Of a stretch of DNA of 47,969 nucleotides, positions 1,309-43,984 are shown piece after piece; the stretch's first letter is position 1, and each line of letters opens with the position of its first letter. The DNA is from Candidatus Altimarinota bacterium (lineage in GTDB: Bacteria; Patescibacteriota; Gracilibacteria; UBA4473): contig JAIPIW010000005.1 of assembly GCA_021734525.1 (NCBI GenBank), positions 1-47,969 on the forward strand, read 5' to 3'. The notes under the pieces are model-generated. The model had not been told where the DNA came from. It ran no database searches and saw nothing but the letters and a program-made list of their open reading frames with translations. A program made the translations under genes and the position numbers.

Positions 1309-4300
1309 TTAGTTTTTCGAGATTCTTGTTCCGTTGTTGTCAATATCTAGTAAGTAACCGTTCAACCAGTCAGAGGTTGCAGAACTGTGTGATGGATCAG
1401 ACTCGTCTGACCAAACTACGTACTGTTCTCGATCAAGAACAATGTAGTCACCAGCGGCAAAAGCAGCAGTCATAGCTGTTCCTACGGTAATTAAGTAGGA
1501 GTTAGCGTCAGTTCCAGCGGTAATAGAACTAATAGTGTTAGTTGCGTTGTTACCAGGAACACTGATATCAATTGCATAAACTGCATCTCCTACGCTGAAT
1601 TTAACAGCATCAGTAGCACTAACCTCCATGACAGTGGTTGAGTACTGATCTGTTGCACCAGCAGCAGCTCCTGTAGCGTAAGTTCCCATAGTTACTAGCT
1701 CATCAGTTGCAGCAAAAGTGGCAGTCATAGCTGTTCCTACGGTAATTATTACAGAACCTGCATCGGTTCCAGCAGCAATAGCACTAACAGTATTTAGTTT
1801 GCTGTTAGCAACTGTACCAGTGTCGATAGCGTAAATTACGTTACCAACTGCAAAAGCAGCAGCTTCAGTCTGAGTAGTTTCAAATACAGTAGTTGAGTAC
1901 TGATCTGTTACACCAGCAGCAGCTCCTGTAGCAGCCTCACCACTGTTGGTAAGAAGCTGAAGAGCCTGAGTTGTTGGTGCTGAGTAGTAGTTTTCTCGTA
2001 AGAGAGTAACAGTCACACCATCTGAATCTTCTGCAGATCCTCCCATCTCATCAGTATTACTCATAAATACCGCATAAGTCCGAGACTCACCAGCAGCTAG
2101 TCTTTCACCGTTAAGGTTTACCTGTAACTCAGCCACAGTATCATTATCAGCTAGAGTAGTGTCGTTTACTGCAGTAGTAGTGAAAGTCTGGTTTGGACTT
2201 GGAGAACCACTAACCACTTTCTTAGTGATGAAAGCTGGTTCCGCCATGAAGGCAATACCATTTAGACTTACGTTCATAGAAACTCTCTTAATTTCTGCAT
2301 TTCCAGATTCATCAGCTGTAACAGTAAATCGGTAGAATTCTGTTGAAGCAACAGCAGGCAAACTCATTGAAGGTTGTGTAGCAGCTGGTCCAATGTGAAG
2401 CTCTGAAGCGTAAGCAACAAAGTCTTGACCAAGTACGTCTCCCCAACCAGCAGATGGTAGTGAAATATCGTTACCAGTAGCGGCAGTAACAGCCTCTATT
2501 CCCTTGTGGGTAGAGTTGTCAGCGTCAAGAGCTAGCATTAATCGAGTACCAGTTTGGTTAGCTCGAGAAATTTCTCTTACGTCTACCTTAATAGTTACGA
2601 AAGTTGAGTCGTCTTTAGGAACTCGAATTCGATCTTGGTTTGCAAGTTCGAAGTGCAAAGCTCCAGAAGCCATAGTTTTTTCTTGTAGAAGTTGGCCAGC
2701 CTCATCGTAAATCTTGAAGTCAACTCGGTCACCAGCAGTAGTATTATCTGCAGTTCCGTCACCGTTGATATCGTTCTCTAGATAAATATCTTTAACCTGA
2801 ACCTCGTCGTGAGCAGCGTTGAATCGAATTCTTAAAACTTCAATATTGTTAGCATTAGCTACCAAAACGTCTGAAGAAATAACTGAATCAAGAGAAACAG
2901 TTAGAGTTCCTGAGTCAACTAGAACAAAGCTTGTTCCAGCTACTTCGTTAGTAGTAACAGCAATAGCTGTAGAACCGTCATCAGTAACAGTTACTGACTG
3001 TCCGTTTTCTACGTTATCTGCATCAATATCTTCGATATCAATCTTAAGTTGGTGTCGAATAGTAGCAGTACCACCACCAGCAAAGTTGTTGGTAGTTGTA
3101 GAATCAAAGTCGATCTCTGTGTTAGCTGTGTCTACAGCAGTAACAGCTCTTACCTCGTCAGTCTGTCCTGTTTCAGAGAAAACAACTAGGTCTCCTACAG
3201 TAACACCAGATACAGAGGCAACTACAACGTCAGCAGCGCTAGCACTGGTGTCGTCAGTAACAGCTCCTAGAGAAATAGCAGTAGCAGAAGCTTCAATAGT
3301 ATCAACTACAACAGTGAATTTTTTCTGACCAGCAGAAGGAACGATAACTGATAGGTCGTTGAAAGTTGCTTTACCAGTTGAGCTTAAGTTCTTAGCAGAA
3401 CCCTGTTGAGTTCCGTCTACGAAAACAGCCAAAGTAAAGTTGGTGTAGGTTCTAGTGCTTCCAGAAACTCCTGTTCCAGTATTGTCAGTGTTAACGGTAG
3501 CATCTGCACCTACAGTAAGAGAAGTAACGTTAATATCTCCTGAGTCGTTGTTATCTACAACAAACTGTAAGAAAGTAACATCATCCACTCCAGCAACAAG
3601 ATTGTCTCCGTTAGTTAGACCACTAGTTTCAGTTACAGTAAGAAGAGAAGTCTGCACCTGTACGAATGAACTAGTTGCTGAACCAAGAAGCTGTGTTGAA
3701 GCAACCTGGTCTCCAGTAGAAATATATTCTGGAGACTGGAAGTCAGTAGCAGCTATAGTGAATTTCAACTGATCTGAACCACCAGTAGTCACACCATCAG
3801 AAGAGTCAGAAATGTTTCCAACTAGTTTAATGATAGAAGTTCCAGCGATTTCAAAAGTAGTGTTGAAGTTCAAACGTAGTTGATTGTCAGCAGTAATTGC
3901 ATCATCTGCAGTTCCAGCAGCTCGTTCAACATCGTTTTCAGTGTCGATCAAACGATCGTTCAAGAAAAGTCTAAAGTTGTCGAATGCAGCGTTGAAACAG
4001 TCTTCACTGTTAGCGTTAGCTGCGGCACAAGCTGTAGACTTATCTGTTGTTCCGTCTGATTTAACTTTAGTAGCAGTAGAAGTAGAAGCTACCCAAACAT
4101 GTAGTCCGTCAACCAACAAAGGCTGATCAACTACAATTCGACCAGTCATGAAGACTACGTCGTTAGATCCAGGAGAGTATTCTTGGTTTCCAAGTGATGA
4201 AGGATCACGAGAAATGTTCAAGTCTCCAGAATCAATAGTATAAGTAGCTAAAGTTGCATAAGAATCTTCAGCGTTGTTTCCACTAGCATCAACTGCCTTA

Positions 4301-5823
4301 ACACCGAATGAAGTTCCAATTTCAACTCCTACGATATCTTCGTAGTTGTCGATCTTGAACTGAATAGTGTCAGAAGCTTCAGCAGAAACGATGTCTGCTC
4401 GGATTGAGAAGATTCGGCTATCACCGTCTTCAACAACGTAACCACCAGTCACTCCGTTATCTAAACGGAAAGTGATGTAGTCACCATCCATGATAGTTTC
4501 AGCAGAGATCTGTTCTCCAGAAACGTAAAGAGCTGCGTTTTCTAGGTCGTCAGCAAGTTCTGCAGTTCCATCATTCTTGAAGGTAATAGCACGAAGTTCT
4601 ACATCCTTGTTGGTGTTAGAACCGTTCAAAAGTCGGAATTTTCCAATTTCAATGAAGTTATCTCCCACATCAACAGTGGTGTTAGAACCAAGGTTGGTGA
4701 AAGTGAAAGTAGAAACTTCGTAGTCAGCTACTTCCATTTCTTCACCTTCAATTGGGAAGTCTCCTACTACGTTAGCAGCAGTAGAAGAAACATCTTCAGC
4801 GCTCACAAGAGCAAACCGGTTGTGGTGTCCAACGTTTTTGTCAGTAGAGGTGTATTTAGCAGAAGCTACTACATCAGCTACGATTGTTTGTCCAGCAGGA
4901 ACAACAACTGGTGGGTTGAACCGTAGTTCAACAATATCGTCGTTGTTAACAGATTTGTCGTTTCCAACTTTAAATCCATCAATTTCAAGCCAAACGTTAT
5001 CAAAGTCGTCGTTATCACCAAGTCCAAGACGAGTGAAAGTTAGAGATAAAATCTCAACATCACTGTCATCAGAAGCGGTTATATCTAATGTTATGAAAGG
5101 TACTGAAGTAGAGTTGTATGGTACATTAGTTCCTCTTGGAGTGTCGTTAGAAAGATAAACTTCCATAGTTCCTTCGGCAGGTCCAATAGGCTCTGCGACA
5201 ACTAGTTGAGAGTTGTAGACAACGTGAGCGGTTTCTGCACGAGTCACAGCGTTAGCTGGACCGAAAGTTCCGTCACCATATCCACGCATCAAACCATTGT
5301 TGTATGCAGTTTCAATGTATCCATAGTGCCAGTCACCAGCAGAAACATCATCAAAATGAGGTGCTCCAGCTAGATCCTGTTCAATTTCGAAAGCATTGAT
5401 AACCATTTTAGCAATTTCAGCTCGGTTAATACCGTTACCTGGACGGAAGAATCCGTCTGGGTATCCGTTAACCCAACCGTAGTTGTACATGGTTTCAATG
5501 TAATCGTAATACCAAGCGTCTCGAGCGACATCTGGGAAGTGAGGACCTCCGGTGGTGTCAAAATCAACGCCTGAAGCAAGAACGATAACTTTAGAAACTT
5601 CTGCTCGGTTTAGTTGTCTATTCGGAGCAAAAGATCCGTCATCATTTCCGCTTATAACTCCCTGGTCCATAAGCTCTTCGATAGCTTCTTCGGCCCATGA
5701 AGGGATTTCAGCAGCGTCAGTGAATGGCAAAGCTGCATTTACAAGAGGTAAACCAATTGTGAATGCGAAAGCTGCCAAAGCAACTGAGGCTACACTTTTT
5801 TTAATTTGGGCTAATAAGTCCAT
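1309..5823 (-). CDS. S-layer-like surface protein with three N-terminal SLH domains
   Basis: A 1504-aa exported protein. The N-terminus is a signal peptide (basic QIKK, hydrophobic stretch, probable cleavage after LVNA near residue 30). Three SLH domains follow (about 34-80, 93-145, 155-205), with motifs such as FPDVARDAWYYDYIE, GYPDGFFRPG and NRAE. SLH domains usually bind cell-wall polymers. The rest is a long Thr/Ser/Asp-rich, Cys-poor beta-type region with many DxD and VxVD segments, typical of Ca-binding S-layer proteins. Near the C-terminus an 86-codon unit is repeated in tandem. A dedicated terminator lies downstream. A TATAAC hexamer 10 nt before the ATG is a candidate -10 box. It is probably the main S-layer subunit or a major surface protein; SLH assignment is firm, S-layer role is inferred. 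Confidence 0.85.
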   Translation of the reverse strand: MDLLAQIKKSVASVALAAFAFTIGLPLVNAALPFTDAAEIPSWAEEAIEELMDQGVISGNDDGSFAPNRQLNRAEVSKVIVLASGVDFDTTGGPHFPDVARDAWYYDYIETMYNYGWVNGYPDGFFRPGNGINRAEIAKMVINAFEIEQDLAGAPHFDDVSAGDWHYGYIETAYNNGLMRGYGDGTFGPANAVTRAETAHVVYNSQLVVAEPIGPAEGTMEVYLSNDTPRGTNVPYNSTSVPFITLDITASDDSDVEILSLTFTRLGLGDNDDFDNVWLEIDGFKVGNDKSVNNDDIVELRFNPPVVVPAGQTIVADVVASAKYTSTDKNVGHHNRFALVSAEDVSSTAANVVGDFPIEGEEMEVADYEVSTFTFTNLGSNTTVDVGDNFIEIGKFRLLNGSNTNKDVELRAITFKNDGTAELADDLENAALYVSGEQISAETIMDGDYITFRLDNGVTGGYVVEDGDSRIFSIRADIVSAEASDTIQFKIDNYEDIVGVEIGTSFGVKAVDASGNNAEDSYATLATYTIDSGDLNISRDPSSLGNQEYSPGSNDVVFMTGRIVVDQPLLVDGLHVWVASTSTATKVKSDGTTDKSTACAAANANSEDCFNAAFDNFRLFLNDRLIDTENDVERAAGTADDAITADNQLRLNFNTTFEIAGTSIIKLVGNISDSSDGVTTGGSDQLKFTIAATDFQSPEYISTGDQVASTQLLGSATSSFVQVQTSLLTVTETSGLTNGDNLVAGVDDVTFLQFVVDNNDSGDINVTSLTVGADATVNTDNTGTGVSGSTRTYTNFTLAVFVDGTQQGSAKNLSSTGKATFNDLSVIVPSAGQKKFTVVVDTIEASATAISLGAVTDDTSASAADVVVASVSGVTVGDLVVFSETGQTDEVRAVTAVDTANTEIDFDSTTTNNFAGGGTATIRHQLKIDIEDIDADNVENGQSVTVTDDGSTAIAVTTNEVAGTSFVLVDSGTLTVSLDSVISSDVLVANANNIEVLRIRFNAAHDEVQVKDIYLENDINGDGTADNTTAGDRVDFKIYDEAGQLLQEKTMASGALHFELANQDRIRVPKDDSTFVTIKVDVREISRANQTGTRLMLALDADNSTHKGIEAVTAATGNDISLPSAGWGDVLGQDFVAYASELHIGPAATQPSMSLPAVASTEFYRFTVTADESGNAEIKRVSMNVSLNGIAFMAEPAFITKKVVSGSPSPNQTFTTTAVNDTTLADNDTVAELQVNLNGERLAAGESRTYAVFMSNTDEMGGSAEDSDGVTVTLLRENYYSAPTTQALQLLTNSGEAATGAAAGVTDQYSTTVFETTQTEAAAFAVGNVIYAIDTGTVANSKLNTVSAIAAGTDAGSVIITVGTAMTATFAATDELVTMGTYATGAAAGATDQYSTTVMEVSATDAVKFSVGDAVYAIDISVPGNNATNTISSITAGTDANSYLITVGTAMTAAFAAGDYIVLDREQYVVWSDESDPSHSSATSDWLNGYLLDIDNNGTRISKN
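1418..1933 (-). repeat. Tandem 258-bp repeat inside the S-layer gene
   Basis: Two adjacent 86-codon units encode similar segments near the C-terminus of the S-layer-like protein. Shared blocks are GAAAGxTDQYSTTV, YAID, AGTDAxS and ITVGTAMTAxFAA. At DNA level the segments near 1470-1490 and 1726-1746 are almost identical, as are those near 1650-1676 and 1908-1933. This is consistent with a fairly recent in-frame duplication. Unit edges are approximate. Confidence 0.8.
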
Positions 5824-22629: not shown

Positions 22630-25600
22630 CTATAGTTTGCTGATCTCAATTACCACTTTCTCCCCGTCTAAATCCATCTCATCTGCCATGATCTCTTGGG
22701 TTTCTGCTCCATAAATAATTTCTTCAGCTAAGGTTTCTCCAGCGATCATGGTGTCAAAATCTTTTACCGCTTCTTGGATAAGATTGGAATTAGTTTGATA
22801 GGTAATAGAAATACGATCAGAAACTTCAAAACCTTTGGATTTTCTTTGTTCTTGAATCACCCTAATTAATTCTCTGGCCATTCCTTCAGTCTTTAATTCC
22901 GTAGTAATTTCTGTATCCAGTAGTACCACGGTACGTGGAGTGGCTTCTACTTCTTTTCCTTCTTCGCAAACGAAACCCATCGTAAATTCATCGCTACTCA
23001 ATGTTTCTCCAGCGATTTTTACACTACCGTCTTTTTGTAATTCAAAATCTCCAGACTTTCCTTTAATGATTAATTCCTGCACTTTTTTACCAAGCCGTGG
23101 CCCAACTTTTTTAGCATCTACTCGCACTACTTGTTCCGCAAGTCCCTGCACAGATTTTAGTTGTTCTACTTCTTTCACGTTAGCTTCCTCCTTAATGATT
23201 TCTAAATCCAATTCTACTTTATCTGTTGTCATAAACTGCAATTTTTGGAGTGGTTGGCGTAGTTTAATCTTTCTTTTTGCTCGAATACTCGCCGCCAAGG
23301 AAACAATCTCCCGTGCTAAACCAACTTTCTTCTGGGATTTCTGGTCAATCCATTTTTCCATCACTTGTGGAAAATATTCTAAATGTACAGATTCTCCACC
23401 TCCCAGATCCTGATATAACTTCTCCGCAAAGAAGGGACATACCGGAGCTAATATTTTAGCTAAAGTCATTAGTACCCAGTGTAGTGTTTCATAACCAGAC
23501 TGTTTATCTTCTGTCATTTCGGAAGCCCAAAATCTTCTCCTAGATCTTCTTAGATACCAGTTATTGAGATTGTCTATGAAGTCTGGAATTAGTCGCAAGC
23601 CCCCTTCTAAATCATAGGTATCAAAGTGTTTTCTAAATTCTTTCAGTAAAGTTTGAGATTCTGAAAGAATCCATTTATCTAAATCATTTTTTACTTCCGG
23701 GAAAGCAAATAGAACCTTAGCTTCTCCGGGATGTTGCATCGGAACTTTAATGATTTCTTCTAAAGCAGAAATTCCTTGCAAGTTTGCTTCTAGTTGTCTG
23801 GTTGGTCCTCCATGAGAAACAAAAGCGATAGTCTTATTCCGGTGTTTCTGACACATCTCATCGAAGAATTCTCTCATGCGTTTCATAACCTCTTCCTTGG
23901 TTTCTACCCCCTTGGTTTGCATTCTTTTTAGTGCTGGAATATAGGGTTTTCCTTCTAAGTCGCCAAAATAAAGTTCCCGAAGTCGTTCATCTGTTTGTAT
24001 TTTTCCAGCAAATCCTCTTTCTTTCTTAATAATTTCTGCCGTACTTTGAGTTCTCTGGAAGGGGGAAGCATAAAAGACATCAAAATCATCTAGTTTTTTA
24101 GCTAATTCCTTAATATCTTTCCGTCCTTTGTCTGTTAACGGATAATCATCTTCTACTCGTCCGGCAAATACTTTCTTTATATTCGTTGTAGATTCCCCGT
24201 GACGAAGCATGAGGAATTTAGTTGGTTGCCACCCATCTATATTGGCATACGTAGAAAAGAACTGATAGGCAGACCTCAATGGTAAAAGTACAGACTTAAG
24301 AACCTCTTCTACTCCATGTTCTGAAAATCTCAAATTCTCACCTCTGGCAACAGGCGAATGCAGTAAATAAAACCGCATGGCATCTGCACCGTACTTATCA
24401 AAAATGAGATTAGGGTCCGGATAATTCTTTTTGGATTTTGACATTTTTTCACCATCTTCGGCGAGCACTATTCCGTTAGTAATCACATTCTTAAACACCT
24501 CCTCTTTAAAGAGAGCTACCCCCAGAACATGAAGGTTGTAAAACCAACAACGAGTTTGATCTAATCCCTCCGCAATAAAATCTGCCGGCTTAAATTCCTG
24601 ACCAGAATAAGGATAATTAATGGAAGCGTAAGGCATAGAACCAGATTCAAACCAGCAGTCCAAGACTTCTGGAATCCTGTGAAGAGTTCCTGCACACTTA
24701 GAACATTTCCAAGTTAAATCATCCACAAAATGTCGGTGCAAGTCATCTACCTTCTTCCCAGAAAGTTTTTCTAATTCATCTCTCGTGACAGCCATGACTT
24801 CTTCACATTTATCACATTTCCAAACCGGCATTGGTGTTCCCCAGTATCTGTTTCTAGAAATTGCCCAATCGGGGGCAGTCTCTATTCCTTTACCAAACCG
24901 ACCATGTTTCAGATACTCTGGAGTCCAGTTAATATTTTCATTTTTAGCCAAAAGTTCTTTCTTTATCTTTTGGATATCTACAAACCAAGTATGAATTCCA
25001 CGATACATCAGCGCACATTCTGTCCGCCAACAGTGAGGGTAGGAGTGTCTAATCTGAGACCTATTAAATAGTTTCTCATTCTTTTTTAGTTCTTCTAAAA
25101 CCCAAACATTAGCATTGTCTTCTGACCCTTCTACTTCCTCGTCATAACGGAAATACTTTCCTTTCAGTTCTGGAATAGTGTCATCAAAATAACAATTATC
25201 TGTAAACGGATAATCCAACGGAATGTTATGGGCGTTTAGAATACGAGCATCTTCTTCTCCAGTTGGTGCCATATGTACAATTCCCGTTCCTTCTTCTTCG
25301 GAAACAAAATCATCTCCTACAACCTGCCAGGCATTTTCATAACCTTCTTTGCCAACATAGAAATCAAAAAGTGGTTTGTAAGCTTTCCCAACTAACTCTT
25401 TTCCTTTGAATTTCTCAACAACCTTAAAGTCAGAGCCAAAGATATTTTCTACCAAACTACTAGCAACAATAAACTTAGCTCCTTTCGCTTCCACCTTGCT
25501 GTATTTCATTTTTGGATGTACCACGAGCAACAAATTAGAAGGTAATGTCCAAGGAGTAGTAGTCCAAGCCAGAAGATGTGTCCCTGGTTCATCTACTAAC

Positions 25601-26238
25601 TCCATTCCCACCGTAACAGCTGGATCATCGATATCTTTATAATTAAGGTTGGCTTCAAAGTTAGAAAGAGGCGAACCAAGTTTGGGGGAATAAGGTACCA
25701 CCTTATATCCCTCATAAATAAGTCCCTTTTTCCAAAGTTCGCCAAACACCCACCAAACAGATTCCATGAATTCTGGATCCATGGTTTTGTAGTCATTATC
25801 AAAATCCACAAAACGCCCCATCCGATCTACTACATATCGCCAATCTTCCCGGCAACGCATGACAATAGAGCGACAAAGTTCGTTGAATTTTCCAATCCCC
25901 ATCTTTTCTATCTCTGGTTTGCCACCAATCTTATGTTCTTTTTCTACCTGAAATTCCACCGGCACTCCATGACAATCCCAACCCCATTTTCTCTCCACCC
26001 GATAACCTTTCATGGTATAGTAACGAGGAATAGTATCTTTCAATGTCCCCGCTAATATATGTCCATAGTGTGGAGTTCCAGTTGCAAAGGGCGGTCCATC
26101 TAAAAAAACAAATTCATTGTGATGCTGACGAGAATCAATGGTCCGCTGGAAAATATTCTCGTCTTTCCAGAATTTCATAATCTCCTGCTCATTATCTGAA
26201 AGTGATTTATTGGGTTCTACGGAAGGGAATTTTTTCAT
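22630..26238 (-). CDS. ileS: Isoleucyl-tRNA synthetase with inserted histidine-phosphatase domain
   Basis: A 1202-aa class I synthetase charging tRNAIle. HIGH-type motif HYGH is at 57-60 (PHYGHILAGTLKDT, as in the eukaryote-like type 2), editing CP1 about 200-430, two CxxC pairs at 475/478 and 512/515, and KMSKS at 598-602. After YANIDGWQPTK a foreign domain of about 175 aa (near 671-847; nt 23698-24228) replaces the usual short linker before NDLDKWILS. It reads FLMLRHGEST (R-H-G, 679-681), ASPFQRTQSTAE, RELYFGDLEG (E near 755) and FVSHGGPTRQ (H near 809), all hallmarks of the phosphoglycerate-mutase/histidine-phosphatase family. Without it the enzyme would be about 1027 aa, a normal size. 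ATG at 26238 was chosen because the 26301 ATG lies in the T-box. Confidence 0.95.
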   Translation of the reverse strand: MKKFPSVEPNKSLSDNEQEIMKFWKDENIFQRTIDSRQHHNEFVFLDGPPFATGTPHYGHILAGTLKDTIPRYYTMKGYRVERKWGWDCHGVPVEFQVEKEHKIGGKPEIEKMGIGKFNELCRSIVMRCREDWRYVVDRMGRFVDFDNDYKTMDPEFMESVWWVFGELWKKGLIYEGYKVVPYSPKLGSPLSNFEANLNYKDIDDPAVTVGMELVDEPGTHLLAWTTTPWTLPSNLLLVVHPKMKYSKVEAKGAKFIVASSLVENIFGSDFKVVEKFKGKELVGKAYKPLFDFYVGKEGYENAWQVVGDDFVSEEEGTGIVHMAPTGEEDARILNAHNIPLDYPFTDNCYFDDTIPELKGKYFRYDEEVEGSEDNANVWVLEELKKNEKLFNRSQIRHSYPHCWRTECALMYRGIHTWFVDIQKIKKELLAKNENINWTPEYLKHGRFGKGIETAPDWAISRNRYWGTPMPVWKCDKCEEVMAVTRDELEKLSGKKVDDLHRHFVDDLTWKCSKCAGTLHRIPEVLDCWFESGSMPYASINYPYSGQEFKPADFIAEGLDQTRCWFYNLHVLGVALFKEEVFKNVITNGIVLAEDGEKMSKSKKNYPDPNLIFDKYGADAMRFYLLHSPVARGENLRFSEHGVEEVLKSVLLPLRSAYQFFSTYANIDGWQPTKFLMLRHGESTTNIKKVFAGRVEDDYPLTDKGRKDIKELAKKLDDFDVFYASPFQRTQSTAEIIKKERGFAGKIQTDERLRELYFGDLEGKPYIPALKRMQTKGVETKEEVMKRMREFFDEMCQKHRNKTIAFVSHGGPTRQLEANLQGISALEEIIKVPMQHPGEAKVLFAFPEVKNDLDKWILSESQTLLKEFRKHFDTYDLEGGLRLIPDFIDNLNNWYLRRSRRRFWASEMTEDKQSGYETLHWVLMTLAKILAPVCPFFAEKLYQDLGGGESVHLEYFPQVMEKWIDQKSQKKVGLAREIVSLAASIRAKRKIKLRQPLQKLQFMTTDKVELDLEIIKEEANVKEVEQLKSVQGLAEQVVRVDAKKVGPRLGKKVQELIIKGKSGDFELQKDGSVKIAGETLSSDEFTMGFVCEEGKEVEATPRTVVLLDTEITTELKTEGMARELIRVIQEQRKSKGFEVSDRISITYQTNSNLIQEAVKDFDTMIAGETLAEEIIYGAETQEIMADEMDLDGEKVVIEISKL

Positions 26239-26245
26239 TATTATA

Positions 26246-26271
26246 AAAATAGCAGAAATAAATATTTCTGC
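26246..26271 (-). terminator. Attenuator hairpin between T-box and ileS
   Basis: GCAGAAATA pairs with TATTTCTGC (26271-26252), followed on the minus strand by TATTTTTAT just before the ileS ATG. It overlaps the antiterminator helix by one nucleotide (26271), so mutual exclusion would be steric. It is most simply a transcription terminator; a translational role is also possible. Confidence 0.6.
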
Positions 26272-26440
26272 GAGAGTCCCTAAAAGAAGGGACGGTACCA
26301 TCTCGATTTTTTACTTAATTTTTTGGACACGCGCAAAAGATATGAATCAAAACGCGACGTGATCTACTCTTCCCACAAAGGAATTTCTGCACGCTCCCTG
26401 TTTAGAAAATAAACTCGTGGTAGATAGCCACTCTAAGGGA
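26252..26440 (-). promoter_or_regulatory. T-box leader of ileS
   Basis: The minus-strand leader folds as a T-box that senses uncharged tRNAIle. The antiterminator (26305-26271) is complete: CGAGA/TCTCG helix, 7-nt bulge TGGTACC (26300-26294, the UGGNACC that pairs with the tRNA NCCA end), GTCCCT/AGGGAC helix. Upstream is a short Stem I (TCCC-TTAGA with TCTAA-GGGA, 26440-26395) containing the hairpin GTGG-CTATCTA-CCAC, whose loop holds ATC (26425-26423), an isoleucine codon and likely specifier. A second stem (26393-26358) has CAGAAA opposite GAGTAGAT, like a loop-E motif; it contains another ATC. The short Stem I recalls the ultrashort class of ileS T-boxes in Actinobacteria. Confidence 0.85.
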
Positions 26441-36358: not shown

Positions 36359-39300
36359 TTACTCTTCTTTGCCTGTCGCTTTAATAACACTTTCTTTAAT
36401 TGTTTTGGTTATGTCTCTCAATATTTTCTTAGTTTCTCCACGACGAATATTTTCTGATTTATCTATAATCTTCATAGGTGCTCTCGTAGAATTTGGATCT
36501 AGGGGATTCCAAGTACTACGTAATGGTCTAGCATACTCAGGTTCCTGAGCTTGTTCATATTTTCTCCAAAGAGCATGTGTTTCTGCTTCTGAAACAGTTT
36601 CTGTTTGTCTTATTCCCAGTCTAGCTTGCTGCTCTACTTCTTTCCCCCGAAGTTTTTCCATAAATTTTTGGAAAGCTGTTCGCGGCGTAACATTGGCCTC
36701 CTTATACTTTAGGGCATTGATAAACCAGGAAGAAAATTCTGCTCTAGTTATTGGTTTTTCATGATAGAAAAATTTTGTGTCCTGAAAGTTTGTGAACCAA
36801 CCAGTCCCTTTGGCCGCCACTAACACCGGAGCAATGGGGTCTTCTTTTAAAACATCTTGAAATGAAGTTTTCCAAGCTTTTTCATTAATATCCAACCCAA
36901 AACTACTCGCTAACACTAGTAAAACATCTTTTCTGGTCGGACTTTTATCGATATCAAAATCAACATCAATAATTCCTTCTTCTAGGGCTGTATAGAATAC
37001 CAAACTCTTTAAGTTGTTTTCCAATGCCACCCCCTTCAGACTAGGAAGCTCTGCTCTTTGTAGGTTAATAATATGATTAATATCAATACAGTTAGCCGCC
37101 ATCACCATTTTAAGAATATCCTCCCAAGAAGCTTTTTGATTTGGTCTAAACTTATTATTACTGTCAGCTTTAATGATTCCATAGGAATTCATTTGGATAA
37201 TATCTTGAGTATAAGCCCCTTTATTTGGAACATCAGAAAAATTTGCCACACTGTCAGAAGCCTTAAGGCAAACTTTTTGTGCATCAGCAGAGTAGAACTC
37301 CTTCCCAGATTTCCCCTGACTTATTGCCCTTCTTTCTGAACCAAAAAGACCGGTAATACGACGAGCAATTTCTGGCTGCTGTTCAAATTCATCTACCCCC
37401 CTTTGTCCAGGAACATACCCAATAAAAACTTCTCGTCCGTAACGATCTTCCCCAGTAATAATTTTACCAGCCTGACCAACATTTATTTCTTCAGCCTGTT
37501 TTATCGCCGCCTCATAACCTTGCTCTGCTATCTTAAGTGATTCTTCTCTAGTCATCCCCGCTCTCCTGAGAGATGCTCCTCCGCTAGAACTTATTTGCAC
37601 TAAACCATCTTCTGTTTGAATTAAATTAGGAGCCTCTATTGCAAATAGGGTTGGAGATATTTTAGGGTCTATATCTGTAATCGTAATAGTTTCTTCATAT
37701 TTAAGATAAGCCTGATGATATGCCTTAAATAAAAAGGTTCTGTTTCTAGGAACGGTAAAAGCATAATCTCCGTTAATATCGGTTACCGTTTGATATTCGT
37801 CCGCTCCATCAATAAGTTTAATGGTAATATTCTGGAGAGGATTTCCAGCGGTGTCTAATACCTGTCCGGAAACGTAAACTCCCCGCGTAACATTAATAAG
37901 TTCTGAAGTCAGTAAATTAGTTTGATCTACTGCTAATAATTGCTGTCCAACAAAAGTGTTGGGGAGTCCGATAGAAACATCACCACTACCATCTGTTGTT
38001 CCCGTGTTTAAAGAAACTAGATTTCCGTTCCGAACATCAAAAACCTGAATTCTAGCACTTGCTTTCCCGCTAATTTCAATATTAATAAACCCTTGTTGAA
38101 AAAGACTATTATCTGAAATATTAGTAAACTTGGGATTTTTTAATGTCCCCGAGGCTACATGAATTGTTATTGTTCCCGTTTTTACTAAGCCTCCGTTATC
38201 ATGAACAAATTCAGCAGTAACATCATGATTGGAACCAGCAACTAAAGTAAGTTCAATAAATACCCTTCCCGAAGCATCACTCACTCCAGTGCCAATTACT
38301 GCTCCTAATGAATTTTTCACTGAAACTGTTTTTCCTACTGGCGCATTTCCCAAAAAGGTAAAGGTGGTATCTGTTTTATTATCTGTAGTAGTTTTAGGGG
38401 CAATAAGAATAACTCGATGATCTACCGAACTACTTGGATCTGTGCCATCTGAAACTTCTGTCCCATCAATAATGGTGTCTCCATCTGAATCATTATTAGC
38501 GGGGTCAGTATTATTTTGGAATTCTTGCAAATTAGTAAGATTATCCGAATCTCCATCAGTGGCAGCATCTGCATCACTATTCTTATCAAGACCGTGTAAA
38601 TCTTCCCACCAATCAAGCATCCCGTCGGAATCTGTATCGGTCGGAATATTCGTAGCTGTCTTTACTGTTTCCGCATTACTCATTCCATCTGTAGAAAAAT
38701 ACTTCACCGTGAATCTTCCCGCAGTTAAATCGTCTTCTGTCAAAACAACACTAGTTCCCGCCGTACTACCAGTGGTTGGAGTAGAGCCATCGGTAGTATA
38801 ATAAGTTTGAGAAATACCAGAACTAACCGTCTGATCACTAGGAGTTAGGGTGATAGTTAATGGAAGAGTAGCCGGATCTGTGGAAGGGGCGTTGTCTATA
38901 GTTACCGGAGCTGTACGATCTACTTTCACCGCTGTAATATCACTTTCGGTACTATTACCAGCATTGTCGGTAACAATGACCTTAAAATTGTATTGTCCGT
39001 CTTGGGCTGTTCCATCAACAAGTCCAGTATCTGTGAAATAATATGTTTGCTCGGTAGTTGTAGTAGAAATCTGCGTAAAATCTACATCATTATCTCCAGC
39101 TAAAGCGCCATCTCCGTTCTGATCAAATTGGACATAGGTCACTACTGAAGCCACTCCCGAGTGAGCATCTGTTCCACTGGGGGTATAAGCTGTCGAATTC
39201 TCACTCGTAAAACCATTCTCATCCATAAGATCTGGATCTAGAGCAAGAGCTGGGGTGGGATTAGTGATATCTATTTTAATCGTGATGTTCTGTGGTGTTT

Positions 39301-42300
39301 CTTCGTTCCCCGCAATGTCTGCAGCATAAAAACTTAAGGTATTAGGGCTTCCTGCTGTACAATCAGTATCAAAAGTAACTCGGTTGTTGTAAGGAGTTAT
39401 TCCAGCCCCATTCTTGTTAAATACAATCTGACTTACTCCAGAATAATAGCCAGTTCCACTATCGCTGGTGTTAGGATTGAAAAGAGTTGTTCCCGAATCT
39501 GTAGCACTAAGAGTTACTGTTACCGAAGTATTGTACCATCCTTCACCATTAGCGGTTCCTGATAAAGATTCTGAAGTTGTAGGTGCCGTCTTATCTGCCA
39601 AGACTCTTAAAATGGAGGAAAAATCCCCTGTGTTTTCTTCCGCATCTTGAGCACGAACTTTGTATTCATAAACTTGCCCGTCAGTTTTGGAAGCACTATC
39701 GGTGTAGGAAGTGGTATCTGCGTCCGCAGTAGTATCCAAAAGACTATCGTCTTTATATACCTGATAAGCACTAGGCTGATAAACATCAGTAGCTACTGTC
39801 CAATCAACTACCACTGAATCATCTGTTGTATAAGGGTCTATGTTTTCCAGAACCGGAGCATGTTCTTCCGTTAAATTAACCTCAAACTGAATGGTATTAG
39901 AGTCCGTGCTAAGCCCGGCTCTATTATTAGCGGCAATCTTATAAATATACTTCTTTTCCCTTTCAGTGTTAGTATCTGTGTAATAGGTATTAACTGTTGT
40001 CCCTAAAGAACGCTCTCCTATTTCTATTTCCCAATTCCAATTTGGGTAAGTAAAAACGTATGCATAATCGGTCCGGTAAATAGTATAATTCTCAATACCA
40101 GATTCTCCATCAGCACTAGCTGTCCAAGAAATATTCTGATTCCCTGGCGGAGAAGGATTGGCATGATCGGCAAGCACAAAACTTGCTGGAGCTGTAGAAT
40201 CCAAAGTTGTTCCAGCACTATATACAAAATTAGATTTATTTCCGACTTCATCAACCGCCCTAACTTTGGCGTAATAAGTTCCTCCCTGTGTTCCAACATA
40301 GGCTTTATAATTGGTTACATAATGATTATGTTCATAAACTACGTTAGAAAAATCTTCATCATCAGCAATATATATTTCGTAGTGATCTATTCCTGATCCT
40401 CCATTATCAGAAAAACCACTCCAAGAAAAGTTTGTACTTAAACTTGGTTGGTAATCCCCTCCGTTAGACACCGTTCCCACGGAAGGATTACTAGTGTCGA
40501 TGGTAGTAGATATTTCTTCCTCTGAAAAACTTGTTTCCGTCCCGCTGGCATCGCGCAACTTAACTCGGAAGTAATAAATCTGTCCGTTAGTTAAATTTTG
40601 GAAATTGTGAGAAGTTTCGGAAATCCAACCAGAATTTTGGACATTGGCGGTAAAATCAGAAGATGTAGATAATTCCGCATAAAATTGCGCACTAGGAACA
40701 TTAGAAACCCAAGAAAAGGTCAGCTGATTACTCCCAGTATAACTATCTAAGGCATTAGGAGTTGGCGCTCCCGCGGCAATAGCCTCAACATTGAGTTGAG
40801 TTTGTTCTGAATCAATCGTAGAAGCATTGGTCTGGATATATGCTCGAGCATAAATAGTTTGACTACCGGTTTCCATGGTAGTGGCATCTGTTTGCCAAGT
40901 CCCATTAGACCAACTTCCATCTTCTTGCTCTACTCCTTGTCCAACATCTGCATAAACAAATGGCTCATTCTCTCCTAGAACAAAGAGTCCAACTCTAGTT
41001 GGAACCTGTTGAGCATTGGGCAGGGTTTTAAATAGTCCATCTCCCGTCCCCGTAAAGGTATAGTCAAAACTGTCTTCTGAAACTCTATCAATTGAGGTAA
41101 TTATAGGGGTAGCAATAGCAGTTCCTTGATCATTATCATCATCATTATCTAGTCCATCACCATCGAAATCATCGCTACTAGACTGATTAAGGTAAAAAAT
41201 TCTATTGCCAGAAACAATATCTGACGCATTAGCTCCAATGAAGGCTTTGGCAAAAATAGTATGTCCTCCTTCATCCATGGTCGCCGAACACGTCCAACTC
41301 CCAAGATGGGTAACTGCCATATTAGAAACATCTGTACTAGAAACTACCTGTGTAGTTACTCCGGTAGTGGTATTTAATTTTGTAACTCCATCGTTGGTAG
41401 AGATGTAAGCAGAATTACGTAGAGAGTGTTGATCTACATCTGTAACAGAACTAGCCGTCCCAGCAAGCGTAACTGCGGTATCTACCGTAAACCAATTAGA
41501 AGTTAAACTATAATAAGCTGCAATTTGTTCACTAGTTAGGGCGTTATCAGAAATAAAAGGTAGGGCAACATTACCAGCAAAATATTCATCTTCGTAACCA
41601 TAACCAATACGTAAATCCTCTACAGCACTTACTATGTTCCCAGTGTGAGGATTCACTTCTTCCAAAACTCCATTACGGTAAATTCTAACATTAGAACCAT
41701 CGTAAGTTCCGACAATGAATTCCCAAGTATCTGTTACGGGAGTTGTTTGGACAGATGCCGCTTTGAATCCACTGGCTGTTTGTACTCCAAAAAAGTAGGG
41801 ATCAAAGGCGAGAGGGTAATCAAAGAATTCATCTCCCGCAGATAAAAAGTAACTTCTCGTGTCCCTGGAAGTACCATGAGATAAGATCTGCGCATAGGCG
41901 CCACTGCCCCCAGTAGAGGCTCTCTTAATCCACATTCCGACAGTAAGCTCACTTCCGGTAATATTAAAATCTGTACTACTGGAACTTAAATAATTAGAAG
42001 TTCCGTTGAAAGTAAACTGTTGCGTATCTGTTCCCGAAACAGCCTCTGATATTGTTACTGAATTATTATTTGTTAAATCGTTACCAGAAAGGCTTCTATC
42101 GGTGACGGAATCAAACCAGTATCCTTTTTCATCCAAAGTGAAAGCTGGGGTGGCATAGTCCTTAGTGCGGTGAATATAGGAATAAGCAGAAGTTCCTCCG
42201 GCTGCTAATGTAGTAATTTCGTCTTGAGTTAGAATTCGATTGTAAATTTTGACATCGGAAATAGAGCCATCAAAAGTAAAATTCTCATTATTACTACGGT

Positions 42301-43966
42301 TACCAATGGTTACGGGCGCTACTGAATTAGGATAATTTCCTCCAGAAGTTCCAGGAGTTCCCGACTGAACCCCATTAATGTAATGAGTAACTGTTGTTGT
42401 CGGACTACCTATTGTAACAAGTACATGAGTCCATTCATCATAAGGAACTGAATTGTCTGCAGAATACCTTTGAGTAGAACCCATCACTCTCGCCCCCACG
42501 GTATTAGTAGGTCCCATAAAATAACAAAATCCACCAGCACAATCTGACCATGTAGATTTATCAACTATTCTCGCATAATTACCCTCTCCTCTGCTACTAG
42601 GTTTTATCCAAGCACTTATAGTGTATCCAGAAGAACCAAAATAAGTATTAGATGTTAGGTCTGTTTCAACAGAATCGTTATCCCCATCAAAAAGCATTGC
42701 GCTATCTGAAGAAGTTCTTCCTGTGGTAAGAGTTGCCCCACCATTAATTGTTCCATTCCCATAAGCATTAGATGCTATTCTAGATAAGCTATCAAAATTA
42801 TCTTTATAAACTAGCCCATTTTCTATATCCACTAGTTCAGATTGAATCTGAGTTATTCCACTAGTATGTCCTATAAAATCCCCATGAGCAGTGCTACTGG
42901 TTCCAGAAGAAAAGTTCGTTCCAGTAGAAATATCCGTAACATCCCAATCGGCAGATAGAGTGTCTACTGTATCATCTGAAACAAAAGAAGTAGAGTCTAA
43001 AGCATAACGCAACTTATCATCACTATCTATAGAAACTACTGAAACATCATCTGTGGTTTTAGAAATCACGGTATTGTCTGTAGCATTAAAAATAGAGGTC
43101 CCCCCTCTGGTTCCAACCACAATATAATCTTTAGCACTCAAAGTTTTTCCATCCAAATCTTCAACAAAGTTATTTTCAATTGCTGGAGTAGAAATAGTTG
43201 TTAGAAGAACAGTAAAATCATCACTAGCAAAATCATAAACCTGAAGACCCGAAGATGTTCCTACGTAAATAGAACCGTTTAGAGCAAAAATGGAAGTAAT
43301 CCCTGCTAGAGAAAAACTTTTCCAAAAAGTTTTCTTCTGCGCATCAAAAATGATAAATTCGGTATTTGTGGCTACTAAAATCACCTTAGATGGAAAAGTA
43401 GATTCTCCACAACGGTCATCCTCTCCACTTCTAGGATCGTCATCTCCATCATCTGTTTCGTGATCACAGACGCTGTCTGTCGTATCATCTTTGGTTTCAC
43501 TATACCAAGAATTAGAGCTTCCTGTTCGCCAGGAAGTGGACGCTGAATCTGAGGTAGTGTCATAGAAAAACTGGGCCTGAATAGCCCCAGAAACAAGAGT
43601 TGTCCCGTCTATACTCACACTCGAACCCGTTCCACTAGAAATTCCATTCCCAGAAACATCCGCACTACATTGTTGTGCAGCATCTTTGAAAATCCTCACT
43701 TGTGTGTCTATTTCCCCTGTCCCAGAAAAAGTAGCATTGAGACTATCATCTGCTATTCCTGCTCTTTCAAGGGGAGAAATTATTTGAGGCACAAAAATAG
43801 AAATAGAGTCGGTATTGTCTACTGTAGAATCCAAACCATCCGAATCCGCATCAACGGCCAAAGAAACTTGTGTCCAAACTAATCCCAGTAGCAAGCAAAA
43901 AACACCCAGAGACCAGACTCTTTTTTTTGTATTTACTTTTATTTTGTTTGTGGGGTCCGAATACAT
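36359..43966 (-). CDS. Giant LamG/FN3/TSP3 surface protein with C-terminal SLH region
   Basis: About 2535 aa. A signal peptide (SLGVFCLLLGLVWTQVSLAVDA) leads to a DxDxDG stretch, a propeller-like region (LVATNTEFIIFDAQ, IYVGTSSGLQVYD; about 200-350), two LamG/concanavalin domains (about 430-600 and 640-810), fibronectin III-like repeats (about 1090-1500), Ig-like/HYR and chitobiase-C-like segments (APVTIDNAPS... about 1770), thrombospondin type 3 calcium repeats (DTDSDGMLDWWED..., DNDSDGDTIIDGTEVSDGTDP), a carboxypeptidase-regulatory-like domain (VSGQVLDTAGNPLQNITIKL) and an SLH-containing C-terminus (FSDVPNKGAYTQDIIQMNSYG, FRPNQKASWED). Probably a wall-bound adhesin or carbohydrate-binding protein. 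ATG at 43966 was chosen; GTG at 43981 adds five residues. Confidence 0.85.
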   Translation of the reverse strand: MYSDPTNKIKVNTKKRVWSLGVFCLLLGLVWTQVSLAVDADSDGLDSTVDNTDSISIFVPQIISPLERAGIADDSLNATFSGTGEIDTQVRIFKDAAQQCSADVSGNGISSGTGSSVSIDGTTLVSGAIQAQFFYDTTSDSASTSWRTGSSNSWYSETKDDTTDSVCDHETDDGDDDPRSGEDDRCGESTFPSKVILVATNTEFIIFDAQKKTFWKSFSLAGITSIFALNGSIYVGTSSGLQVYDFASDDFTVLLTTISTPAIENNFVEDLDGKTLSAKDYIVVGTRGGTSIFNATDNTVISKTTDDVSVVSIDSDDKLRYALDSTSFVSDDTVDTLSADWDVTDISTGTNFSSGTSSTAHGDFIGHTSGITQIQSELVDIENGLVYKDNFDSLSRIASNAYGNGTINGGATLTTGRTSSDSAMLFDGDNDSVETDLTSNTYFGSSGYTISAWIKPSSRGEGNYARIVDKSTWSDCAGGFCYFMGPTNTVGARVMGSTQRYSADNSVPYDEWTHVLVTIGSPTTTVTHYINGVQSGTPGTSGGNYPNSVAPVTIGNRSNNENFTFDGSISDVKIYNRILTQDEITTLAAGGTSAYSYIHRTKDYATPAFTLDEKGYWFDSVTDRSLSGNDLTNNNSVTISEAVSGTDTQQFTFNGTSNYLSSSSTDFNITGSELTVGMWIKRASTGGSGAYAQILSHGTSRDTRSYFLSAGDEFFDYPLAFDPYFFGVQTASGFKAASVQTTPVTDTWEFIVGTYDGSNVRIYRNGVLEEVNPHTGNIVSAVEDLRIGYGYEDEYFAGNVALPFISDNALTSEQIAAYYSLTSNWFTVDTAVTLAGTASSVTDVDQHSLRNSAYISTNDGVTKLNTTTGVTTQVVSSTDVSNMAVTHLGSWTCSATMDEGGHTIFAKAFIGANASDIVSGNRIFYLNQSSSDDFDGDGLDNDDDNDQGTAIATPIITSIDRVSEDSFDYTFTGTGDGLFKTLPNAQQVPTRVGLFVLGENEPFVYADVGQGVEQEDGSWSNGTWQTDATTMETGSQTIYARAYIQTNASTIDSEQTQLNVEAIAAGAPTPNALDSYTGSNQLTFSWVSNVPSAQFYAELSTSSDFTANVQNSGWISETSHNFQNLTNGQIYYFRVKLRDASGTETSFSEEEISTTIDTSNPSVGTVSNGGDYQPSLSTNFSWSGFSDNGGSGIDHYEIYIADDEDFSNVVYEHNHYVTNYKAYVGTQGGTYYAKVRAVDEVGNKSNFVYSAGTTLDSTAPASFVLADHANPSPPGNQNISWTASADGESGIENYTIYRTDYAYVFTYPNWNWEIEIGERSLGTTVNTYYTDTNTEREKKYIYKIAANNRAGLSTDSNTIQFEVNLTEEHAPVLENIDPYTTDDSVVVDWTVATDVYQPSAYQVYKDDSLLDTTADADTTSYTDSASKTDGQVYEYKVRAQDAEENTGDFSSILRVLADKTAPTTSESLSGTANGEGWYNTSVTVTLSATDSGTTLFNPNTSDSGTGYYSGVSQIVFNKNGAGITPYNNRVTFDTDCTAGSPNTLSFYAADIAGNEETPQNITIKIDITNPTPALALDPDLMDENGFTSENSTAYTPSGTDAHSGVASVVTYVQFDQNGDGALAGDNDVDFTQISTTTTEQTYYFTDTGLVDGTAQDGQYNFKVIVTDNAGNSTESDITAVKVDRTAPVTIDNAPSTDPATLPLTITLTPSDQTVSSGISQTYYTTDGSTPTTGSTAGTSVVLTEDDLTAGRFTVKYFSTDGMSNAETVKTATNIPTDTDSDGMLDWWEDLHGLDKNSDADAATDGDSDNLTNLQEFQNNTDPANNDSDGDTIIDGTEVSDGTDPSSSVDHRVILIAPKTTTDNKTDTTFTFLGNAPVGKTVSVKNSLGAVIGTGVSDASGRVFIELTLVAGSNHDVTAEFVHDNGGLVKTGTITIHVASGTLKNPKFTNISDNSLFQQGFINIEISGKASARIQVFDVRNGNLVSLNTGTTDGSGDVSIGLPNTFVGQQLLAVDQTNLLTSELINVTRGVYVSGQVLDTAGNPLQNITIKLIDGADEYQTVTDINGDYAFTVPRNRTFLFKAYHQAYLKYEETITITDIDPKISPTLFAIEAPNLIQTEDGLVQISSSGGASLRRAGMTREESLKIAEQGYEAAIKQAEEINVGQAGKIITGEDRYGREVFIGYVPGQRGVDEFEQQPEIARRITGLFGSERRAISQGKSGKEFYSADAQKVCLKASDSVANFSDVPNKGAYTQDIIQMNSYGIIKADSNNKFRPNQKASWEDILKMVMAANCIDINHIINLQRAELPSLKGVALENNLKSLVFYTALEEGIIDVDFDIDKSPTRKDVLLVLASSFGLDINEKAWKTSFQDVLKEDPIAPVLVAAKGTGWFTNFQDTKFFYHEKPITRAEFSSWFINALKYKEANVTPRTAFQKFMEKLRGKEVEQQARLGIRQTETVSEAETHALWRKYEQAQEPEYARPLRSTWNPLDPNSTRAPMKIIDKSENIRRGETKKILRDITKTIKESVIKATGKEE

Positions 43967-43984
43967 AGGAATTTTAGGCACAAA

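Follow-up and report, generated by a model that had tools for sequence, protein, structure and literature searches.

A histidine phosphatase domain nested in the isoleucyl-tRNA synthetase of a Gracilibacteria genome, and its recurrence in the IleRS and ValRS of CPR bacteria

Few enzymes are as conserved as the aminoacyl-tRNA synthetases, and where these carry extra domains, a role in editing, tRNA binding or signalling has usually emerged for them. The closest described relatives of the protein reported here are the type-2 (eukaryote-like) isoleucyl-tRNA synthetases (IleRSs), with structures available from yeast (8wnd and 7d5c), Priestia (IleRS2, 8c8v) and Thermus (1ile). They share with our protein the catalytic core, CP1, the anticodon-binding domain and the C-terminal domain, but they are devoid of phosphatase and display a linker of about 22-23 residues (measured between the matches of our residues 683 and 869-871) where it carries a histidine phosphatase (HP). 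This HP has in common with the branch-1 enzymes PhoE (1h2e), PspA phosphoserine phosphatase 1 (4ij5), CobC alpha-ribazole phosphatase and RNase H/acid phosphatase the RHG motif, the second Arg, the Glu, the second His and, judging from its predicted model, the order of strands and helices. Unlike them, it is nested in a synthetase and comprises about 150-170 aa; moreover, the His of the PspA sequence E-I-D-H-G is replaced by Phe at the aligned position. A synthetase combined with an extra enzyme domain is also what the NCBIfam model NF040702 describes (IleRS with N-acetyltransferase domain). However, the extra domain is in that case a GNAT and not a phosphatase, our IleRS scores 301.8 against a cut-off of 1999, and Pfam detected no GNAT domain in it. 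For an IleRS with a GNAT domain, the literature yielded a natural-product review only, and a search short on subscription papers and without preprints returned no report of a synthetase with HP or of inserts in CPR synthetases. Both domain families are known, and the repeated nesting of HP in IleRS and ValRS is seemingly unreported.

The window analyzed here is a stretch of 47,969 nucleotides from Candidatus Altimarinota bacterium (contig JAIPIW010000005.1), whose genome assembly amounts to 934.6 kb in 43 contigs and is about 90% complete. The IleRS gene occupies 22630..26301 (-) as a single open frame of 1223 aa; ORF reading revealed neither stop nor frameshift, in agreement with the continuous frame reported by the first-pass annotation. 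The start is probably M22, at 26238, which would give a protein of 1202 aa. The ileS equivalog TIGR00392 recognizes it with 885 bits against a cut-off of 621, and Pfam assigned PF00133 to residues 41-657, PF00300 to 697-845, PF08264 to 875-1020 and DUF5915 to 1034-1222, so that the three families named in the first-pass annotation (PF00300, PF00133 and PF08264) were all recovered. The class I catalytic domain with its CP1 editing domain, delineated by Pfam and motifs (24331..26181 (-)), has intact synthetic-site motifs (HIGH-type HYGH at 78-81 and KMSKS at 619-623) as well as intact editing motifs (TTTPWTLPSN from 247 and TGIVHMAPTGEED from 339). The anticodon-binding domain PF08264 and the C-terminal DUF5915 are encoded at 22633..23679 (-). 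The matches to PF00133 in the source genome are this IleRS, one ValRS, one LeuRS and a 490-aa frame of MetRS size. As the sole IleRS gene found in this about 90% complete genome, it is expected to charge tRNA-Ile.

The inserted HP (23704..24222 (-), residues about 694-866) lies in the linker that precedes the anticodon-binding domain. The phosphoglycerate-mutase-like domain that had been recognized by eye between YANIDGWQP and NDLDKWILS is indeed a PF00300 match with an E-value of 8.8e-32 and 110.8 bits, above the gathering cut-off of 21.7. The description of its flanks as normally nearly adjacent is correct, given their spacing in the solved IleRSs that have no insert. The GC content is level across both HP borders. 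The catalytic motifs cited in the first reading are real, namely R700 and H701 in the RHG motif LRHGEST (24199..24204 (-)), E776 at the proton donor position in LRELYFG (23974..23976 (-)) and H830 in SHGG (23812..23814 (-)), to which we add R750 of the catalytic pocket, in SPFQR (24052..24054 (-)).

An AlphaFold2 model of residues 22-1100, computed with an alignment of 32 rows, has a mean pLDDT of 85.7 and a pTM of 0.82. In its HP part, strands and helices follow one another as expected for the superfamily, in blocks mostly above 80 pLDDT except for the loops 684-695 and 759-777 (model numbering). Foldseek retrieved with this model the IleRSs of yeast, Candida, Priestia and Thermus, with TM-scores of up to 0.87 by target length. 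Against the NCBIfam models of characterized HPs, the domain scored 87.3 for CobC (cut-off 162.9), 87.2 for dPGM (225), 70.2 for PspA (350), 42 for GpmB (261) and 23.5 for SixA (74.5). Being under every one of these cut-offs, it does not reveal a substrate by its sequence. Another conceivable role of the HP is to make up for a general metabolic function that such a small genome lacks, for example that of a phosphoglycerate mutase. The profile search indeed gave two PF00300 matches in the source genome, one inside IleRS and one inside ValRS, and found no free-standing HP in this about 90% complete assembly. On the other hand, the dPGM score is far below its cut-off, and a 507-aa frame of iPGM size matches PF01676 (Metalloenzyme), to which cofactor-independent phosphoglycerate mutase belongs. 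We thus disfavour a replacement of phosphoglycerate mutase by the HP and consider this whole explanation highly improbable.

The same architecture is widespread in the family of the source genome. PF00300 is present in all 20 genomes searched, and 19 of them, the source genome included, encode an IleRS whose HP is inserted where that of the window gene is (site A, between STYANIDGWxPTK and NELDxWILS). An identical in-frame architecture with clean and conserved flanks in 18 other family genomes rules out in practice an assembly chimera or artefact, for which no sign came to light and for which we see virtually no chance left. A ValRS bearing one or two HPs was found in 16 of the 20 genomes. In the source genome, the ValRS insert sits after PQWFILVD, a place different from that of the IleRS insert, and the 820-aa LeuRS has no HP. 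Additional HPs of the family's IleRSs are found at two sites of the Zn-module loop, named B2 and B3, which are located around DLTWxC and after CWFESGxMPY. The maximum in one protein is three, in the 1569-aa IleRS of the relative L034.

HP matches in frames of about 850-1570 aa were also obtained from many families of a 287-genome sample of the phylum. The long frames fetched from this sample (26 hosts, completed with the same architecture in two further genomes of family f5) were all IleRS or ValRS; among these long HP-bearing frames, none was a LeuRS or another large protein. At least six distinct HP sites exist across the two synthetases. Outside the window's family, HPs of IleRS are most often inserted at site B, which follows GTPLPIW and precedes DLHRPYIDE, and the IleRSs of family f5 often have two HPs, at sites B and B2. 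An independent length survey gave an IleRS match in 135 of 145 CPR genomes; verification frame by frame located an HP inside IleRS in 21 of these 135, from 16 families, and not in the other 114, so that the HP activity is dispensable for charging. As to whether other CPR IleRSs have the insertion at the same site, this holds for nearly all genomes of the family; beyond it, the usual site is a different one and most IleRSs have no HP. ValRSs longer than 1000 aa are likewise rare outside the window's family (4/111). Among the matches listed, 79 of the 80 nearest IleRSs of named genomes, nearly all non-CPR (Spirochaetota, Chlamydiota, Lentisphaerae and others), are without HP; the sole HP-bearing one from a named CPR bacterium, L161 of Candidatus Gracilibacteria, agrees with L051 both in its length and in the coordinates of its HP, which suggests that the window's family falls within this part of the CPR. 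A phage source for the HP is disfavoured, since a scan of viral contigs did not return any relative and phage records gave distant matches only, at about 30% identity.

Two further observations were made. The f15 IleRSs L206, L207 and L208, of about 1220-1260 aa, contain two inserts of approximately 100-130 aa each, in which no Pfam family and no HP was matched. Other HP fusions exist in CPR (L091, L092, L093 and L094), with partner domains that we named by reading the sequences: 2-hydroxyacid-dehydrogenase-like, Nudix-like and DedA-like membrane protein.

The 52 IleRS HPs compared have a mean pairwise identity of 31%, and their most conserved residues are the catalytic ones. R700, H701, R750 and H830 are invariant, as are E800 and R808, and E776 is kept in 51 of 52, with Asp in the other. 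For two same-genus pairs, dN/dS values of 0.17 and 0.16 were obtained, which are approximate because synonymous changes are near saturation. The view of the first-pass annotation that selection and not chimerism accounts for the insert is therefore borne out by the site common to 19 of 20 genomes, by the invariant catalytic residues and by a dN/dS of about 0.16. The situation is more contrasted in ValRS: all 22 HPs retain R, H and R, but 19 of them have the second His and about two thirds have the Glu. In L062, L063 and L064, both the catalytic Glu and the second His are lost; nevertheless, the L062/L063 pair displays a dN/dS of 0.05, again an approximate ratio (several pairs were saturated, and L063/L064 was left out). 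Strong constraint despite these losses means that a non-catalytic role is possible for ValRS HPs of this type. Extended to all the inserts, such a role would make the HP a structural or binding module, docking tRNA or a partner, and not an enzyme. The constrained ValRS domains plead for it, but the preservation of the catalytic residues above all others in 52 of 52 IleRS domains does not fit with it, and we regard it as quite unlikely. The phosphatase activity of the IleRS insert is a prediction from its conserved residues.

In a tree of 110 HPs, the inserts cluster by host and by site. Those of site A form one group (SH-aLRT 93), as do 20 ValRS inserts (95) and the B2 inserts of f5. The B3 inserts are united with free HPs, four in number and from the same family (99). 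The HPs of the ValRSs L068 and L069 are placed outside the main ValRS group. That of the source-genome ValRS is nested within it though located elsewhere in the protein, so that the HP has probably moved within ValRS. The distinct sites require several insertion events. However, an AU test did not reject the descent of all inserts from one HP (p 0.152); the sites are therefore established as distinct, and independent HP sources are not proven.

The neighborhood of the gene brings another element. A YbaK-type aminoacyl-tRNA deacylase (PF04073, 22121..22612 (-)) is encoded directly downstream of IleRS after a gap of 17 bp, and YbaK homologues adjoin IleRS in several relatives. In one genus (L043, L044 and L059), overlapping or touching genes encode successively IleRS, in some cases a VOC-like protein, YbaK, a free HP and the threonine ammonia-lyase IlvA, and this free HP is related in the HP tree to the B3 inserts. 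In further genera, IlvA follows IleRS and YbaK without free HP. Altogether, IlvA was seen near IleRS in six relatives (L043, L044, L047, L048, L052 and L059). It is possible that IleRS-YbaK-IlvA constitutes in CPR an operon of translation fidelity and threonine/isoleucine metabolism. The occurrence of the HP both as a free protein in the IleRS operon and as a fused domain inside the enzyme suggests a functional link between HP and IleRS.

What the computation establishes is the architecture, the integrity and conservation of the active sites, a model in which both the synthetase and the HP part are folded, and the recurrent insertion into IleRS and ValRS only. We propose that the window gene encodes a two-function enzyme, made of a type-2 IleRS and of a predicted competent branch-1 HP that would serve Ile/Val charging, and we give this proposal an even chance of being right. 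The coupling of the HP activity to charging, already suggested in the first reading for a nucleotide or phospho-substrate and for which the host specificity and the free HP of the operon argue, is itself about evenly balanced. Counting against it are the HP-less majority of CPR IleRSs, the several ValRS HPs without catalytic Glu or second His, and unrelated domains that relatives carry, either in the loops that also accept the HP or in the CP1 region: GNAT (L050, L051 and L057), an RBBP9-type serine hydrolase (L054 and the ValRS L068), HAD (the ValRS L068), a DUF559 nuclease (L060) and a MuF_C-like PF18819 domain (L051). These inserts weaken a strictly HP-specific story and bring up a broader one, that of synthetase-borne accessory enzymes.

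The main rival is that the surface loops of CPR IleRS and ValRS simply tolerate domain inserts, the HP being an ordinary small-molecule phosphatase parked on an essential and well-expressed protein with no tie to charging. The variety of domains just listed, the acceptance of the HP at several sites and the absence of a free-standing HP from the source genome would all be expected in this case. One would then expect less easily that six or more sites are confined to just two paralogous hosts, that LeuRS (HP-free at 820 aa in the source genome) and other large proteins are spared among the long frames fetched, and that the free copy of one genus stands precisely in the IleRS operon. We consider this rival a serious candidate that is somewhat less probable than the two-function enzyme.

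If the HP is kept on IleRS and ValRS because its reaction serves Ile/Val charging, the mechanism that we prefer is that it could dephosphorylate a small molecule made or handled beside the synthetase, by the phospho-histidine route of the HP family. Candidate substrates would be AMP, a phospho-amino acid or an aminoacyl-nucleotide, toxic or by-product, with a phosphomonoester or P-N bond; each of them taken singly is improbable. The HP would thus be a proofreading or detoxification module beside the CP1 editing domain and the neighboring YbaK deacylase. We hold this role, directed at adenylate-like or phospho-amino-acid compounds, to be a rather doubtful guess. A parallel could be drawn with aminoacyl-nucleotides of the microcin C type, which are synthetase inhibitors disarmed by a GNAT (MccE), a peptidase (MccF) and HIT enzymes (PMC12250964). 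The microcin C immunity enzymes are encoded by separate genes of antibiotic clusters, whereas the HP is fused in the synthetase; by analogy, the HP insert is possibly their functional counterpart. We know of no HP member among these immunity enzymes.

A broader hypothesis, which we advance just as tentatively, would be that the IleRS and ValRS of CPR bacteria have repeatedly been fitted with enzyme modules (mainly HP, but also GNAT, hydrolase and nuclease) as a second catalytic layer of quality control or self-protection, which would act at the charging site on small molecules that are phosphorylated or adenylate-like. If true, this would define a new class of proofreading or immunity, embedded in synthetases. 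The repeated insertion of a phosphatase with a conserved active site, at different positions of just two paralogous synthetases and in very small genomes, points to an undescribed phosphorylated compound linked to Ile/Val charging. The IleRS and ValRS of CPR also offer a model for the entry of whole enzyme domains into essential proteins.

Elsewhere in the window, two giant surface proteins with S-layer homology domains are encoded at 36359-43981 (2540 aa) and 1309-5823 (1504 aa), the former additionally with laminin-G-like and Ig-like domains.
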